64,000 nt of DNA, taken from the NCBI RefSeq assembly GCF_030285785.1, contig NZ_CP127247.1:3433501-3497500 (forward strand), written 5' to 3'. The DNA comes from Parasedimentitalea psychrophila. Its GTDB lineage: Bacteria; Pseudomonadota; Alphaproteobacteria; Rhodobacterales; Rhodobacteraceae. The position numbers and the translations under genes were made by a program. The notes under the pieces were generated by a model. That model worked only from the letters and a program-made list of their open reading frames with translations, made no database searches and was not told the origin of the DNA. Shown piece by piece: positions 83 to 47,154 of this stretch (the stretch's first letter is position 1; each line of letters opens with the position of its first letter).

Positions 83-262
83 ATGCGAAAGAGCCGGCTT
101 ACAGAGGCGCAGATTATTCACTGCCCGGCAGGGTATTGCGTCGCAATGTCCCGAGAGGGGATGATTAGGGAACAAGAAGGTGGGATGCCAGCTGCTGAGC
201 TGTGCCGCAGGAACGGTCTGTGTCCAGCGTCGTTCTAAAAGTTCAAAGCCAGCTTGTATTGT
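83..262 (+). pseudogene. IS3-family transposase orfA, broken
   Basis: Translation starts MRKSRLTEAQII, typical of IS3-family OrfA helix-turn-helix proteins, and resumes after the palindrome at 119-160 as MIREQEGGMPAAELCRRNGL and PASF. A stop codon at 236-238 (TAA) sits where the family has a tyrosine codon. The sequence continues KFKAS and then degenerates. It carries an insertion and a nonsense change and is not functional. Confidence 0.7.
119..160 (-). repeat. Transposase-associated palindrome, copy 1
   Basis: A 42-bp element, from CACTGCCCGGCAGGG to CCCGAGAGGGG, with an inner stem ATTGC/GCAAT. It lies inside orfA of the IS3 remnant, between the codons for AQII and MIREQE. On the minus strand it reads in the consensus direction (CCCCTCTCGGG first). 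Confidence 0.8.
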
Positions 263-369: not shown

Positions 370-535
370 CATTATATCGATCCTGGAAAACCTCGGTGGA
401 ACGCCTTTATCGAGTCTTTCAACGTTAGCCTGCGCCCCTCTCGGCAGATTGCTTTGCGATACCCTGCCGGGCAATGGACGAGTGATTGAACAGGGAGTTG
501 ATCGATACGTTGGATGACGCAACCCGCAGACACTC
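370..535 (+). pseudogene. IS3-family transposase orfB, C-terminal remnant
   Basis: The frame reads YIDPGKPRWNAFIESFNVSLR, a well-known stretch of the DDE integrase domain of IS3 OrfB (GKP..NAFIESFNG.LRDE). After the palindrome at 435-476 it resumes as DE, stop, LNRELIDTLDDATRR. The catalytic N-terminal part is missing. The palindrome separates the codons for LR and DE almost exactly. Confidence 0.7.
435..476 (+). repeat. Transposase-associated palindrome, copy 2
   Basis: A 42-bp copy in the consensus direction, CCCCTCTCGG to CCCTGCCGGGCAATG. The inner stem ATTGC/GCGAT is weakened relative to other copies. It is inserted in the orfB remnant between CTGCG and GACGAG, which would be contiguous in an intact transposase. 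Confidence 0.8.
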
Positions 536-13641: not shown

Positions 13642-14457
13642 TCATACTCGCGCATGTACAACATGAGAGACATGCGGAAATGCCAAGGCGTGGCCGTCAT
13701 AGTAGGAGCCAAAAGTATCCAGATATTCCTGAAGAAGGTTTTGGCGTGTCTCTTCGGGCAGATTTGAGATCGCATCGGCGGCAGGCGTTGAGGACATGTT
13801 CCTTGCCACAAAAGCCCTCCCATCAGAGTGCCGCAGTGTAAGTGTAACGCTCTCGATGCTGATTTCGGTAAAACCAGCCTCAGCAAACAGATCGTTAATC
13901 ACACCGGAATCCGACAAGCTGCAAACTGCGCGGATGGCGTTTGCGGCGTCTTCGCCAATGTACCGTGTGAGGATTTCGATTTGGCCGTTCATCAACGGAT
14001 TGTGTTCAAGGCTTCGCGCTACACAGATCACACACCGTCCACCGACGGTAAGAATACGACGAAACTCTTTCAGGGCAGAAAGCTTGTCAGGAAAGAACTG
14101 AAGACCTTGTTGGCAAAAGACAGCGTCGAAGCTTGCATCGTCGAACGGCAAATTTCCTACGTCTGCTTCGACCCAGTCGATCACTTTACCTTCTTCTTTC
14201 GACTTCGACTTGGCTACAGTCAGCATTCCAGCGTTGATATCCGCACCGACCACCTTTGCATCTGGCCCAACTCGATCAGACGCCATTCGCGCCACAATTC
14301 CGGTGCCACAAGCGGCATCGAGGACAGCTTCTCCAGCGACAAGTTCAGCGCGATTTAGTAGTTCCTGCGCCCAAGGAATGAATATGACAGGAACTAAGTT
14401 CTCTTCATACCGCTCTGCGGCTCCCCAAGAGACCTGCCACCTTAAGTTGGCTTCCAT
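13642..14457 (-). CDS. Class I SAM-dependent methyltransferase
   Basis: 271 residues, UbiE/MenG-like Rossmann methyltransferase. Motif I is VLDAACGTGIVARMA (about 46-60), the acidic end of beta 2 is VVGADINAGML, motif post-II is WVEADVGNLPFDDASFDAVFC, followed by LKEFRRILTVGGRCVI. A strong GGGGAGGA site precedes the ATG. The substrate cannot be told from sequence; the family includes quinone, lipid and small-molecule methyltransferases. It stands alone next to an IS110 copy, so it may be cargo from transfer. Confidence 0.8.
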   Translation of the reverse strand: MEANLRWQVSWGAAERYEENLVPVIFIPWAQELLNRAELVAGEAVLDAACGTGIVARMASDRVGPDAKVVGADINAGMLTVAKSKSKEEGKVIDWVEADVGNLPFDDASFDAVFCQQGLQFFPDKLSALKEFRRILTVGGRCVICVARSLEHNPLMNGQIEILTRYIGEDAANAIRAVCSLSDSGVINDLFAEAGFTEISIESVTLTLRHSDGRAFVARNMSSTPAADAISNLPEETRQNLLQEYLDTFGSYYDGHALAFPHVSHVVHARV

Positions 14458-14643
14458 GTTGTTATCCTCCCCTGCGGTTGGTCATCCCGACGGCCTTTTG
14501 CCGAGCATAAGTATCTTAGAAGAAAACCCCCTATTTACCCAGCGACCATGTTGAGCAGATGGGGTGGATGGCTCCTGCTCCGACCGGCGTCGCTTTGCGC
14601 CATAATGCAGGTGTCGAAATCTGCGAATGAGGGGAGCCACCCA

Positions 14644-15704
14644 ATGCAAGTTACAACAGTTGGCCTCGACCTAGCCAAGAACATCTTTCATGTGCACGGT
14701 ATCACTGATGCAGGTGAAGTCGCATTCAATCGCCCGTTGCGCCGTGCGCAGGTGCTGGCATTTTTTAAGCGCCTTGATCCTTGTTTGGTCGGGATTGAAG
14801 CCTGCGGTACCAGCCATCACTGGGCGCGCGAGCTGAGCCAGGTGGGACATGAAGTACGGCTTATCCCGCCGATGTATGTCAAACCTTATGTGAAGCGCGG
14901 CAAGTCTGACGCGATTGATGCGGAGGCTATTTGCGAAGCAGTCACGCGGCCCACGATGCGGTTTGTTGAAATCAAATCGGTTGACCAACAAGCGCTTCTG
15001 TCCTTGCACCGGGCACGAAGTCTGATTGTTCGACAACGCACCCAATTGATCAATGCGCTTCGCAGTCTGTTGGCCGAGTTTGGTATCTACATTGCCCGTG
15101 GCCTCGCACGGGTGATCAGCTTTGCGCAAAGTGTGGTCGAAGGCGTTGAACTGGAACTTCCCACTATTGCGCAGGACGTGTTCCGCAATCTGTGCCAGCG
15201 GCTTGGAGCCCTTCATGAGCAGGTGAGATGGTATGAGACACGTCTGAGATTGGAGGCGAAGCGAGACGCGCGCGTGAGGCTCTTGCAAACAATACCTGGC
15301 GTCGGCACTGTCACGGCATCTGCGATCGCTGCTAGCATTGGCGATGGCCATCAGTTCAGGAATGGTCGAGAGTTTGCTGCGTGGATAGGATTGACGCCTG
15401 CCAACAAATCGAGTGGTGGGAAAGAGCGATTAGGCCGGATCACCATCCCTCTCGGGACATTGCTGCGCAATGCCCTGCCGGGCAAGGGATGGGTGATCAA
15501 TATCTGCGCCAGCTCCTTGTCGTAGGAATGACATCGCTTGTGCGACAGACTCGATCCCACCCGGAACGGGCGAGCAAATGGCTTACAGCCCTTTTGGAAC
15601 GCAAACCAGCACGCTTAGCAACTGTGGCAATGGCGAATAAAACGGCACGGATCGTCTGGGCAGTTTTGACAAAGAATGAGCCGTACACGCCGAGAACAAT
15701 CTGA
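14644..15704 (+). pseudogene. IS110-family transposase, interrupted by a palindromic repeat
   Basis: The reading frame begins MQVTTVGLDLAKNIFHVHG (first Asp of the DEDD site). GIEACGTSHHWARELS and KSDAIDAEAICEAV follow, then the C-terminal Tnp domain (LLQTIPGVGTVTASAIAASIGDGHQFRNGREFAAWIGLTP). At GRIT (15445) the palindrome of about 42-45 bp enters. The protein then resumes in a different frame as GDQYLRQLLVVGMTSLVRQTRSHPERASKWL and runs to TAA near 15704. The net insertion is not a multiple of three, so the product would be truncated. Confidence 0.8.
15447..15491 (+). repeat. Transposase-associated palindrome, copy 3
   Basis: CCCTCTCGGGA, CATTGC, loop TGC, GCAATG, CCCTGCCGGG, then CAAGGGATG. 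The whole unit is an imperfect inverted repeat: CCC-GGG-CATTGC pairs with GCAATG-CCC-GGG, leaving TCTC opposite TGCC. It interrupts the IS110 transposase gene. Confidence 0.85.
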
Positions 15705-15843: not shown

Positions 15844-15884
15844 CACTGCCCGGCAGGGCATTGCGCAGCAATGTCCCGAAAGGG
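15844..15884 (-). repeat. Transposase-associated palindrome, copy 4
   Basis: Reverse-orientation copy, CACTGCCCGGCAGGGCATTGC, loop GCA, GCAATGTCCCGAAAGGG, preceded by CCAT. It lies in the non-coding tail of the IS110, 140 bp after the transposase stop and inside the right inverted repeat. Confidence 0.85.
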
Positions 15885-27221: not shown

Positions 27222-27374
27222 ACACGTTATACTTCCGGCAACCGATGATCTTGAAATAGGTGAAGTCGGTCTGTCACATTTCGCTAATAGCAGTGGTTTT
27301 GTCCGTGAACTCGGCGGCAGTTTTGATCACGGATTTAATCCGGAGAGGTGATCAGGTCAGCTTTCTTCAGAAAA

Positions 27375-27415
27375 CCCTTCTCGGGCATGCTGCGCATACC
27401 CTGCTAGGCAAGGGG
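27375..27415 (+). repeat. Transposase-associated palindrome, copy 5
   Basis: CCCTTCTCGGGCATGC to CCCTGCTAGGCAAGGGG, a diverged copy with an inner stem GCATGC/GCAT. It separates VSESSTY from LKKADLITSP in orfB. Confidence 0.75.
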
Positions 27416-27616
27416 TAAGTCGATGATTCAGAGACAAAATACCTCTTCTCATCCGTGTATTTTGCCGCCAACTTGCGTGTCGTCAGCGCTTCATTTTCAA
27501 GCGCGAACTCGATCAGATCATCCCGCTTGGCCTGAGGGATACTGTTCCAGACAGACTTTAGGCGGGGAGAGCGATCCGCCAAGGCGTCAAAGCCACCTTC
27601 GACATAGCGATCATAT

Positions 27617-27658
27617 CCCGTTGACCTCTCAGTGAATGCAAGCATTCACCGAGAGGGG
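27617..27658 (-). repeat. Transposase-associated palindrome, copy 6 (CTCTC-type at both ends)
   Basis: A 42-bp variant with near-perfect arms CCTCTCAGTGAATGC and GCATTCACCGAGAGG. Both ends carry the CTCTC half. It lies between FYR and YDRYVEGG of orfB with the frame kept on both sides (net gain of 39 bp against an FYRWYDRY original). Confidence 0.8.
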
Positions 27659-27708
27659 CGGTAGAATGTGGTGCGCGGGATGCCCAACATATCCAAAGTC
27701 TGCTCCCC

Positions 27709-27750
27709 CCCCTCTCGGCAATGGAAACATCGCCTGCCGGGCAACGGGAC
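27709..27750 (+). repeat. Transposase-associated palindrome, copy 7
   Basis: CCCCTCTCGGCAATGG to CGCCTGCCGGGCAACGGGAC, 42 bp, with an altered centre. It separates the orfB segments EWFHLS and LDMLG. Confidence 0.75.
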
Positions 27751-27790
27751 AGATGGAACCACTCAACGGTGCGGATGATTTCCAGTTTCT

Positions 27791-27834
27791 CTGTCACCCG
27801 GCAGATTGCCGCGCAATCACCTGCCGGGTGACAG
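27791..27834 (+). repeat. Transposase-associated palindrome, copy 8 (CCGGCAG-type at both ends)
   Basis: A symmetrical variant: CTGTCACCCGGCAG, ATTGC, loop CGC, GCAAT, CAC, CTGCCGGGTGACAG. Both ends carry the CCGGCAG half. It lies at the orfA/orfB junction, just before the codons for TEKLEIIR. Confidence 0.8.
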
Positions 27835-27860
27835 ACACCTCATTCCTCGTATCCCCCATC

Positions 27861-27900
27861 CACTGCCCGGCAGGGCATTGCAAAGCAATCCCGAGAGGGG
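27861..27900 (-). repeat. Transposase-associated palindrome, copy 9
   Basis: CACTGCCCGGCAGGGCATTGC, loop AAA, GCAATCCCGAGAGGGG, preceded by CCAT; 40 bp, lacking the GT seen after the inner stem in copy 4. It is in frame between LLKKS and GGYEE at the end of orfA. Confidence 0.85.
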
Positions 27901-28057
27901 TCTGTAATGCTTTTTTTGAGCAGGCGATTTTCCAATGTGAGGTCCGCAACGCATTCCTTCAGTGCCATCGCCTCGGATCGCAGGTCTTTCACCTCAGGCG
28001 AAGTGGCCTGACGGGCCGTATCACCGGACAAACGCCGCTTCCCAGATTCAAGGAACT

Positions 28058-28095
28058 CCCCTCTCATGCATATAAACATGCACTGCCGGGCAGTG
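28058..28095 (+). repeat. Transposase-associated palindrome, copy 10
   Basis: CCCCTCTCATGCATATAAAC then ATGCACTGCCGGGCAGTG, 38 bp, with the inner stem replaced by GCAT/ATGC. It splits the orfA segments NWSK and EFLESGKRRL precisely. Confidence 0.8.
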
Positions 28096-28436
28096 CTTGG
28101 ACCAGTTGTAATACTGCCCCTCAAAAATGCCTTCGCGGCGGCACAGTGCCGAGATGCTTTCCTCGCCACGCAAGCCCGCTAAAACAATACGGATCTTCTC
28201 CTCGGATGAATAGGTTTGCCGGGTCTTGCGGTGCATGGATTTGACCAGCTTGGTAGCCGAAGCTTTGCTGGTTCCGGATTTCATGTTCATCTTCACTCCT
28301 TAACAGTTACGATGACCCAGAAATCCTCTGTTGTTCAAATCCTAAATTCTGTCCCACAGGTGCCCCCTATGTCAGGGATGTTGTCCGCTGCTCTACTTTT
28401 CCTTTATTTTTCAGGTGGGCGGGATAGGACGATGAC

Positions 28437-28931
28437 ATGGGATATTCACCGGAACGCAAGGCCGCTGTGCTGAAGCGGATGCTTCCGCCGAACAACCTAC
28501 CTGTGCGGCAATTGTCGCAGGAGGAGGGGATTTCGGAGGCGACACTGCACAAATGGCGGTCTCAGGCGCGTGGCAAGGGTCAGCTTTTGCCGAATGCCGA
28601 TGCTGGCCCCGAGGGTTGGGCCTCGCGCGACAAGTTTGCGGCGGTGCTGGAGACGGCTGCGATGAATGACGCCGATCTGGCGGAATACTGTCGCCAGCGC
28701 GGCCTTTTTGCCGAACAGATCAAGACGTGGCGCGTGGCCTGCGAGCAGGCGAACGACTGGGATCGCAGCAGCACGGCCCGAATGAGCCAGGCCACAAGGG
28801 AAGAGAAGAAGCGGATCAAGGTTCTGGAGCGGGAACTGGCCCGCAAGGACCGCGCCCTGGCAGAAACCGCCGCCCTTCTGGTTCTCAGAAAAATGGCTTC
28901 AGCGATCTGGGGGGGCGACGAGGACGCATGA
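28437..28931 (+). CDS. IS3-family transposase OrfA
   Basis: 164 residues. The N-terminal helix-turn-helix (SPERKAAVLKRMLPPNNLPVRQLSQEEGISEATLHKWR) binds the IS ends; the C-terminal part is a coiled coil (EEKKRIKVLERELARKDRALAETAALLVLRKM). Its stop overlaps the OrfB start (ATGA). In this family a programmed frameshift usually makes the OrfAB fusion. Confidence 0.85.
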   Translation: MGYSPERKAAVLKRMLPPNNLPVRQLSQEEGISEATLHKWRSQARGKGQLLPNADAGPEGWASRDKFAAVLETAAMNDADLAEYCRQRGLFAEQIKTWRVACEQANDWDRSSTARMSQATREEKKRIKVLERELARKDRALAETAALLVLRKMASAIWGGDEDA

Positions 28932-29989
28932 TCAGTACCCCACATCGCCAAACCGCCGCCCTGCTGATCGAAGAAGCGGTCACCGCTGGCGCGCGCCGTT
29001 TCAAAGCCTGTGCCGAGATGAAACTCAGCGCGCGGACATTGCGCCGCTGGACGCAGGGCGGTCAGGTTCAGGCTGACCAGCGCCCCCTGGCCCAACGTCC
29101 GGAGCCGCGCAACAAGCTTAGCGCAGAAGAACGCGCCGCCGTTCTGGCTGTCTGCAATAGCGAGGAGTTTGCCAGCCTCCCGCCCAGCCAAATCGTTCCC
29201 AGATTGGCCGATCAAGGGCAATATCTGGCCTCGGAATCCAGCTTTTACCGCATCCTGCGCGCGCAGGGACAGCAGCAGCACCGTGGCCGGGCAAGGCCAA
29301 GCACCCGGCGCAAGCCGCCAACCAGTTACAGAGCTGCCGGTCCTTGCGTGGTCTGGACTTGGGACATCACCTGGATGCCGGGGCCGGTGGCAGGCATGTT
29401 CTTCTACCTGTATCTGATCGTGGACATCTTCAGTCGCAAAATTGTGGGCTGGGAGGTCCATGAACGCGAAGCTGCGGAATTGGCAGCGACGCTGATCCAA
29501 AAGGCAGTCTGGTCCGAAGCCTGCATCTCGCGACCACTGGTTCTGCATGCTGATAACGGCAGCCCTATGAAGGGCGCGACAATGAAGGTAACGCTCGAAA
29601 AGCTGGGCATCGCGGCGTCCTACAGCCGCCCGCGCGTCAGCAACGACAACCCATTTTCCGAGGCGCTATTTCGCACCTGCAAGTATCGCCCGGATTGGCC
29701 CAAAAAGGGTTTTTCCACGAAGACCGATGCCCAGGCCTGGGTGAAATCTTTCGCAACCTGGTACAACAATGATCACTTCCACAGCGCGATCCGCTTCGTC
29801 ACGCCAAACATGCGCCACGGCGGAAAAGACCTCGATGCTCTCGCAAACCGTGCCATTCTCTATGCAAATGCACGGGCGCAAAAACCAGAACGATGGTCAG
29901 GAAAGACGCGCAACTGGAAGCCCGCCGGAGCCGTCTGGCTGAACCCTGAACGCGAAACCGGCGCCCCAGAAATAAGAGACGCCGCATGA
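28928..29989 (+). CDS. IS3-family transposase OrfB (DDE integrase)
   Basis: 353 residues from ATG 28928. The catalytic core begins VVWTWDITWMPG (first Asp) and VDIFSRKIVGWEVHE, then LHADNGSPMKG (second Asp) and SRPRVSNDNPFSEALFRTCKYRP (the Glu). All three acidic residues are present. The frame is also open upstream of the ATG, consistent with expression as an OrfAB fusion by frameshift. Confidence 0.88.
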   Translation: MISTPHRQTAALLIEEAVTAGARRFKACAEMKLSARTLRRWTQGGQVQADQRPLAQRPEPRNKLSAEERAAVLAVCNSEEFASLPPSQIVPRLADQGQYLASESSFYRILRAQGQQQHRGRARPSTRRKPPTSYRAAGPCVVWTWDITWMPGPVAGMFFYLYLIVDIFSRKIVGWEVHEREAAELAATLIQKAVWSEACISRPLVLHADNGSPMKGATMKVTLEKLGIAASYSRPRVSNDNPFSEALFRTCKYRPDWPKKGFSTKTDAQAWVKSFATWYNNDHFHSAIRFVTPNMRHGGKDLDALANRAILYANARAQKPERWSGKTRNWKPAGAVWLNPERETGAPEIRDAA

Positions 29990-46696: not shown

Positions 46697-47065
46697 TCAC
46701 GCCGGGAACGGATTCAGGCGGTGCAACTGGCCAAGTCGGCGGATGTTGTAGACGAGGTTTTTCATCCCGATTTTGGCCTTGGCCCGCGCCAGGCCGATGG
46801 TTCGCACCAGCGTGCCACCCATGTCGTTCGCCTGCGCGCCGAACACATGCTCGACACGGACACGAACTGAGAATTTCGTCCTGTTGCTTTTCATTGCCTG
46901 TTCGGTCAAAGGCTTGCCTCGTTTTCCCTTGCGATGGATGCGGCTGGTCAGTCCTCTTGCCCTGAGCTTCGCCTCGATTTCTTCCGACCGGTAAGCTGCA
47001 TCTGCCCTGACCCCGGAGGCGGTGTTGCCGCGCATCAGCAACTCGTCCACCGCCTGACTGTCCAC
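46697..47065 (-). pseudogene. IS5-like transposase, C-terminal half
   Basis: Leftward frame DSQAVDELLMRGNTASGVRADAAYRSEEIEAKLRARGLTSRIHRKGKRGKPLTEQAMKSNRTKFSVRVRVEHVFGAQANDMGGTLVRTIGLARAKAKIGMKNLVYNIRRL is the second half of an IS5-group DDE transposase (the final Glu in RVEHVFG). The first half is missing; the break coincides with palindrome copy 11. Confidence 0.8.
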
Positions 47066-47100
47066 TGCCCGACAGTCGAATGCATCGCATTCGATGAGAG
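47063..47100 (-). repeat. Transposase-associated palindrome, copy 11 (diverged)
   Basis: CACTGCCCGACAGTCGAATGC then CATTCGATGAGAG. Inner arms GAATGC/GCATTC are intact and the outer CACTGCCC and GAGAG ends match the family. It lies exactly at the break of the IS5-like transposase. Confidence 0.6.
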
Positions 47101-47154
47101 TGAGGTGCCCCTAGATTTATCGACGCTTTGCTTGGTAATTTTGGAACCAGGGAG

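Follow-up and report, generated by a model that had tools for sequence, protein, structure and literature searches.

A short double-hairpin insert that interrupts transposase genes at exact C|GAY sites

The window analysed here, a 64,000-nt stretch of a 5.0-Mb genome (C1:3433501-3497500), contains copies of a short mobile palindrome of marine Rhodobacteraceae-type bacteria, nearly all copies of which fall within or next to genes for transposases and integrases. Insertion is exact, leaves the target unduplicated and occurs at C|GAY; because most inserts shift the reading frame, the genes that receive them are interrupted. Something either steers the element into transposase DNA or retains it there.

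Copies in the window and architecture of the element

The original prediction described six related palindromes within about 720 bp of an IS3-family remnant, and all six were confirmed, at the coordinates listed below. As an inventory it was correct in these six and incomplete in that five further copies (starting at 119, 436, 15447, 15844 and 47063) had to be added. All 11 copies found in the window fall within sequence resembling IS3, IS110 or IS5 transposases, in agreement with the earlier remark that no copy was noticed in a non-transposase gene. The copies and their hosts are as follows.

27250..28300 (left limit approximate), minus strand: IS3-family orfA and orfB remnant, host of six inserts; from DNA similarity to annotated IS3 family transposases, alignment, comparison with the Hoeflea protein and seed homology to an IS3 orfA fragment
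27375..27413, plus strand: degenerate copy inside orfB; read from the sequence and the flanking protein pieces
27619..27657, minus strand: L-L copy, with CTCTC at both ends; from the pattern scan, the site being empty in two relatives and holding other stems in two
27710..27746, plus strand: element, L to R, 37 nt; absent in homologues
27797..27828, no strand assigned: R-R copy, with CCGGCAG at both ends and flanks also inverted; absent in homologues
27861..27899, minus strand: element, L to R, 39 nt; absent in homologues
28059..28095, plus strand: element, L to R, 37 nt; homologues without it align gap-free
119..159, minus strand: element in IS3-family DNA, by similarity
436..476, plus strand: element bordering the IS3-family match (query 15-434 in the annotated record) that also covers the 119..159 copy
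15447..15487, plus strand: element at the C-terminal part of an IS110 gene; pattern scan and Pfam
15844..15884, minus strand: element with a CCCTTTC left end; the DNA around it resembles annotated IS110 records that lack some 40 nt at this point
47063..47102, minus strand: degenerate element in an IS5-family remnant, adjoining 46701-47062
14446..15522, plus strand: IS110-family transposase frame, a host (PF01548, PF02371)
28437..29989, plus strand: IS3-type orfA/orfB pair, for contrast (PF01527, PF00665)

The 362-bp stretch 46701-47062 is 79% identical to annotated IS5 family transposases; Pfam gave no match in the 152-aa frame beside the 47063..47102 element, nor in the three interrupted fragments tried from the 27250..28300 remnant. 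Pattern scans gave no copy in the IS3-type pair at 28437..29989, which adjoins the six-insert remnant.

Each insert consists of CCCTCTC on the left (L), a variable self-pairing stem, and CTGCCGGGCARYG on the right (R), in an asymmetric unit of about 37-44 nt whose R end has the tail CARYG. In clean copies the two conserved ends are unlike each other and the stem sequence differs from copy to copy. Across 229 copies for which 100 nt of flank was available on either side (loci L059-L066 and L111-L130 left out), insert length was 36-44 nt, and intact window inserts measured 37-41 nt, which revises the predicted 38-44 nt. Length was divisible by 3 in 30 of these 229 inserts, so that most shift the frame.

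What had been read as two interchangeable half types proved to be the two unlike ends of one asymmetric element: the genome of the window holds 95 exact L-R matches, as against two L-L and three R-R places, and among the latter three only the window copy resembles the element. The L-L copy at 27619-27657 retains, on the minus strand, the CARYG tail of an R end; one hairpin arm may have been converted by the other during hairpin replication.

The ATTGC-GCAAT core proposed earlier is not conserved; the stem varies, and it covaries. Folding of five strands from three elements as single-stranded DNA gave, as the best structure, a constant hairpin (CTGC-CGG-GCAG) and a variable hairpin. The z-scores were -1.1 to -2.1; thus stability alone is unremarkable, and what is remarkable is the covariation. 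For this analysis 30 distinct 41-nt elements were hand-picked for diversity from 64, several of them with broken pairs. Of their 270 stem cells 94.8% were paired, compared with 71.9% in shuffles, and the covariation score was 0.537, compared with 0.139 for shuffled and at most 0.125 for slid alignments; two of the five measures were attained by 42 and 22 of 500 shuffles. When all 64 distinct 41-nt elements were taken, 740 of the 768 cells of the 12-pair structure paired. Two IS110 copies in the genome of the window have flanks that are 99.5% identical over 200 nt and elements that differ at five positions, including one compensated pair and the loop. From these near-identical flanks around differing elements we infer that stem turnover can outpace the surrounding DNA, via arm-to-arm correction or replacement.

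A search for a larger, autonomous version used 15 distinct R ends that lack an exact L end. Most had a degenerate L end at the usual distance and a few had none, and no longer element was seen at any of them.

Exact insertion into formerly intact genes

The palindromes had been predicted to be insertions into formerly intact genes, and empty homologues bear this out. When the window IS3 gene was aligned with six plasmid homologues, none of these had an insert at 27710, 27797, 27861 or 28059. The site at 27619 is empty in Hoeflea and Sulfitobacter W027, holds a palindrome with a different stem in Leisingera M527 and S. pontiacus EE-36, and lies beyond the point at which the other two homologues stop. 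Across 27375, the protein pieces ..SESSTY and LKKADLITSP form one unbroken stretch in the Hoeflea homologue.

In the copy of this IS3 gene on the S. pontiacus EE-36 plasmid, alignment columns 701-740 show a second hairpin-like insertion, unlike the first and about 40 nt long. It is absent from the other homologues and perhaps represents another family of the same habit.

Among the 229 copies, an insert-free homologue spanning the junction was found for 149, and one that was also gap-free over 20 nt on either side for 109, which correspond to 69 distinct sites. These unoccupied homologues average 83% identity over 40 nt and are therefore relatives rather than the exact pre-insertion DNA. No duplication or loss of target was found at the gap-free junctions of the 69 sites. 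The target motif, C|GAY (RTC|G on the other strand), is already present in the unoccupied sequences, which have C at -1 in 41, G at +1 in 57, A at +2 in 51 and C or T at +3 in 64 of 69; thus GAYG belongs to the target and not to the element. The sister IS copies without a palindrome, from which the prediction proposed to read off insertion points, were in this way found with exact junctions, and such unoccupied homologues rule out that the palindrome is a normal part of the IS.

One nucleotide can be filled by unrelated stems in homologues from different genomes; at a single IS5 site, 10 copies comprised 8 different elements. Excision and refilling of one old site may explain this recurrence. 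A guide function for the stem is disfavoured, as one site takes many stems. At a further locus (L023, 1634-1669), the left flank is shared with L021, L035, L055 and L077, but the stem and the right flank are others, and the palindrome there may mark a recombination or deletion junction.

In one genome, five copies of an IS30 element carry the insert. This multi-copy IS bears on the possibility, allowed for in the prediction, that IS copies carry the palindrome as normal sequence: the palindrome is indeed present in several copies, but three others are palindrome-free, have an open frame of 387-397 codons and are 94%, 94% and 88% identical in alignment, so the palindrome there is an insertion. 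Four of the five palindrome-bearing copies were compared and had four different left flanks. Unless the same element was inserted into each of them independently, the damaged IS30 has therefore moved since the insertion, and intact copies probably helped it to do so.

Relative to the host gene, the element lies in the same and the opposite orientation in 49 and 36 cases in other genomes, and in 21 and 20 in the genome of the window. A function in the transposase mRNA is unlikely since both orientations occur, and the same observation disfavours byps-like translational bypass or splicing.

Abundance and location in transposase DNA

The 95 exact L-R matches in the genome of the window compare with 1 for a reversed-pattern control. 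A separate scan of reversed sequence also gave 1 hit, and these two controls rule out chance palindromes. The proposed genome-wide collection of copies thus showed that the palindromes reach well beyond the window, and a genome of the same genus (G007) holds 58. Other genomes of the family also stood well above the control, with 35 (G014), 33 (G074), 30 (G006) and 18 (G071) copies. At least one match was present in 80 of 147 genomes, that of the window included, although many of these are chance-like, control counts reaching 5. Outside the family, no genome among the 147 searched had more than 4 matches. A longer pattern found at least 120 stretches in named genomes; among 80 listed titles nearly all are Rhodobacterales, and the exceptions among these 80 are two Vreelandella neptunia stretches, one Robiginitomaculum bin and two unclassified alphaproteobacterial records.

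The V. neptunia contig (NZ_JAKVTW010000024; L139, L170) has two exact copies in a gammaproteobacterial record, which may reflect either transfer with an IS or assembly contamination. Three IMG/VR viral contigs (L251, L252 and L253) have one exact copy each.

By a flank-identity rule, the copies in the genome of the window represent 46 distinct sites, of which 28 fall inside, or no more than 100 bp from, a frame that Pfam matches to a transposase or integrase, among the part of the frames that was scanned. The Pfam host types are IS110, IS5, IS3, IS6, IS30, IS21 and tyrosine integrase, some of the IS names being our interpretation of the models. Homology within 700 bp to 24 seed fragments, drawn from palindrome loci of this genome, covers 41 of the 46 sites, self-matches included; this enrichment is partly circular because the transposase seeds come from palindrome hosts. 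At the other five sites, L075 matches IS66 transposases, L030 and L037 have transposase matches over short stretches only, L029 was read as IS3 by eye, and L007 is without assignment. L029 (1501-1532) has IS3 orfB, again by eye, as its left flank, and on its right a sulfotransferase-like frame (PF03567) follows after about 40 bp.

In named other genomes, a transposase or integrase seed match within 700 bp was found at 85 of 128 sites, compared with 2 of 99 control windows drawn from these loci at a distance of more than 2 kb; palindromes were masked in this test. Together with the exact empty sister sites, these counts support the predicted bias of a small mobile palindrome towards transposase genes. 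Of the remaining 43 sites, 42 were scanned through 122 neighbouring frames (L140, with no frame long enough, and one L247 frame were dropped). The tally, made by family and not by site, covers 25 listed of 27 Pfam families: transposases of IS66, IS256, IS630-like, IS91, IS4/5, IS6, IS3 and IS1182-like types, integrase and helix-turn-helix domains, with MatE and SnoaL_4 the only ones listed outside these classes. In the MatE frame, the element is near the upstream end, away from the best domain match.

Three further genomes were sampled by their first ten listed matches each (n = 30). Twenty match seed fragments, one is IS66 by Pfam (ten frames from seven loci scanned), one (L262) was a chance match with no hairpin and was dropped, and eight were judged by similarity to other loci alone or not judged, L264, L267 and L275 among these eight being without assignment. 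Hosts and immediate neighbours overall include IS3, IS5, IS6, IS21, IS30, IS66, IS91, IS110, IS256, IS630-like and IS1182-like elements and tyrosine integrases, in part by interpretation of models.

Targeting, rival explanations and known palindromes

The bias could reflect tolerance only, with insertion everywhere, purging from working genes and survival in broken IS genes. IS genes are dispensable, and working genes would lose copies that are mostly frame-shifting. However, survival in dispensable DNA should also have filled intergenic DNA. We took a systematic sample of the genome of the window (400 kb in 20 stretches, with frames called by a simple greedy rule and seeds that are partly circular), which gave 20 matches, or 17 accepted copies after L039, L042 and L043 were dropped as chance-like. 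IS neighbourhoods (36.5 kb) held 16 of the 17, and the 33.5 kb of non-coding DNA outside them held none; the 17th copy was roughly 0.7 kb outside the nearest such neighbourhood, and an IS110-record match ends some 26 nt short of it. The even spread over genes and gaps against which the prediction had been set was thus not seen. The target motif is equally common outside IS (CGAYG density 5.65 per kb in IS tiles, 6.30 per kb elsewhere), which rules out motif density as the cause of the bias. Nor does tolerance sit well with the crowding of six copies into 720 bp of a single IS3 gene that otherwise aligns with its relatives at up to about 75% identity; together with the unrelated stems at one nucleotide, this points to preferred insertion. 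Known REPs, by contrast, are mainly extragenic (Di Nocera et al. 2013, PMC3733652). We consider tolerance alone unlikely. It is quite unlikely, in our estimate, that insertion is random and only IS-borne copies multiply and spread between genomes. Palindrome-bearing IS can be multi-copy, as are the five IS30 copies at separate places, and some groups share the same or a near-identical insert at one site of related IS across genomes. Against this, the 46 distinct sites in the genome of the window fall in several IS families, the 229 copies form 150 site groups with 110 singletons, and unrelated stems recur at one nucleotide, all of which argues for many separate insertions into IS.

A host system that puts the hairpin into transposase genes to disarm them would account for hosts and neighbours that span different chemistries, many IS families and tyrosine integrases, in both orientations. 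It would also fit an excess of sites directly before in-frame Asp codons (24 of 57, compared with 13.1 expected from all C|GAY sites in the same frames), several of which look, from sequence, like the catalytic Asp of IS3, IS5 and IS66, although this excess may stem from conserved stretches in which empty homologues are more easily found. No linked system gene was seen, palindrome-bearing IS still spread, perhaps driven in trans, and the element looks like a selfish family with stem subfamilies; we regard such a defence as improbable. A broader reading, in which element- or host-borne machinery would recognise mobile-DNA genes without homology among its targets (some ten IS families of different chemistry and tyrosine integrases) and write a hairpin at C|GAY, often before Asp, disarming or parasitising them, seems distinctly doubtful to us.

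The reading we favour, and hold to be moderately probable, takes the element, about 37-44 nt long, as a non-autonomous mobile double-hairpin that works in the manner of a REP and inserts preferentially into IS DNA, as a hyperparasite of insertion sequences. An HUH-like enzyme acting in trans would read the folded single strand and carry out strand transfer, and new insertions would go preferentially into IS DNA, probably because IS DNA is exposed as a target while it moves. The IS would then carry the insert to new places and genomes, with the disarming of transposases as a side effect. Exact insertion without duplication, a short fixed motif, fixed ends and a covarying structure fit the strand transfer of folded single-stranded DNA known from IS200/IS605 and REP systems (PMC8266576).

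We looked for the enzyme among Y1 and Y2 candidates and did not find it. The genome of the window has no Y1_Tnp match above the cut-off. Among 39 Y1 matches listed for other genomes, the 20 whose loci were inspected contained no convincing element; two had weak two-mismatch matches that we took as chance. A RAYT partner was not found in either set. Y1 matches do occur in four of six searched family genomes with at least 11 copies, compared with four of 49 others (hand count), and this skew towards copy-rich genomes keeps a Y1 enzyme among the candidates. The genome of the window also has three intact IS91-type genes (L304, L305 and L306). Their ends have no clear likeness to the element, which makes an IS91-type Y2 enzyme a weak lead. 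The left end of the DNA common to the three IS91-type copies contains a hairpin, CCGC-TCTC-GCGG, that bears a faint resemblance to CCC-TCTC-GGG, with which some elements start.

Small mobile palindromes are common, and we know of no other with copies almost only in transposase genes. Mitochondrial mobile double-hairpin elements and GC clusters are hairpins of tens of bases, mobile in organelle DNA, for which no bias to transposase genes is known to us. Integron attC sites have the core sites RYYYAAC and GTTRRRY at their ends, whereas the element ends in CCCTCTC and CTGCCGGGCARYG. A MITE would have the terminal inverted repeats of a DDE transposon together with a target site duplication, and no such duplication is present at the gap-free junctions of the element. 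Exact insertion, the lack of duplication and a fixed short target motif resemble IS200/IS605 single-strand transposition, a likeness of working and not of membership.

The nearest known kind is the CGTC-tagged REPs, which Di Nocera et al. 2013 (PMC3733652) describe as short, mainly alphaproteobacterial palindromes with no dedicated transposase. They have CGTC (or TGTC, CCTC) at one end, an 8-9 bp stem that starts with complementary AT and a CCA tail, and they are mainly extragenic, with only a few fortuitous associations with transposase genes (PMC3733652). The element shares with them its short palindromes, a mainly alphaproteobacterial range, no dedicated transposase found, subfamilies with complementary stem changes, some copies inside genes and, on one side, a CRTC-like tetranucleotide (target GAYG, other strand). 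In contrast to the CGTC REPs, its tetranucleotide is present in unoccupied homologues and is thus target, its conserved ends differ (CCCTCTC and CTGCCGGGCARYG), the stem after CCCTCTC is variable with no AT start, the tail is CARYG with no CCA, and copies lie in transposase genes rather than mainly outside genes. GTAG REPs with RAYT (TnpAREP) similarly place an imperfect palindrome beside a short motif, and their hairpin recognition and exact single-strand transfer would fit the element (PMC8266576); the element differs in having no GTAG at the hairpin foot in flank logos and, where that system has a RAYT (Y1_Tnp) gene flanked by the repeats, no Y1_Tnp match above the cut-off in the genome of the window. 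Rickettsia palindromic elements, as summarised in PMC3733652, also lie inside protein genes, but they keep the frame and occur in a wide range of probably functional proteins, whereas the inserts here are mostly frame-shifting and in transposases. The element works like a REP yet does not belong to the known groups by their defining features: it departs from the CGTC REPs in stem start, tail and location, and from the GTAG REPs in tag and RAYT gene. In the literature consulted, including the available portions of PMC3733652, PMC8266576 and PMC12306157, no description of it was found.

The CGTC REPs have no known transposase, and their tag might likewise belong to the target and not to the element. 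If insertion is truly directed, moving DNA would be distinguishable from resident DNA without sequence likeness, and IS elements would have a parasite or brake of their own. If survival or carriage alone is at work, the family still provides a clean marker of the history of IS elements.
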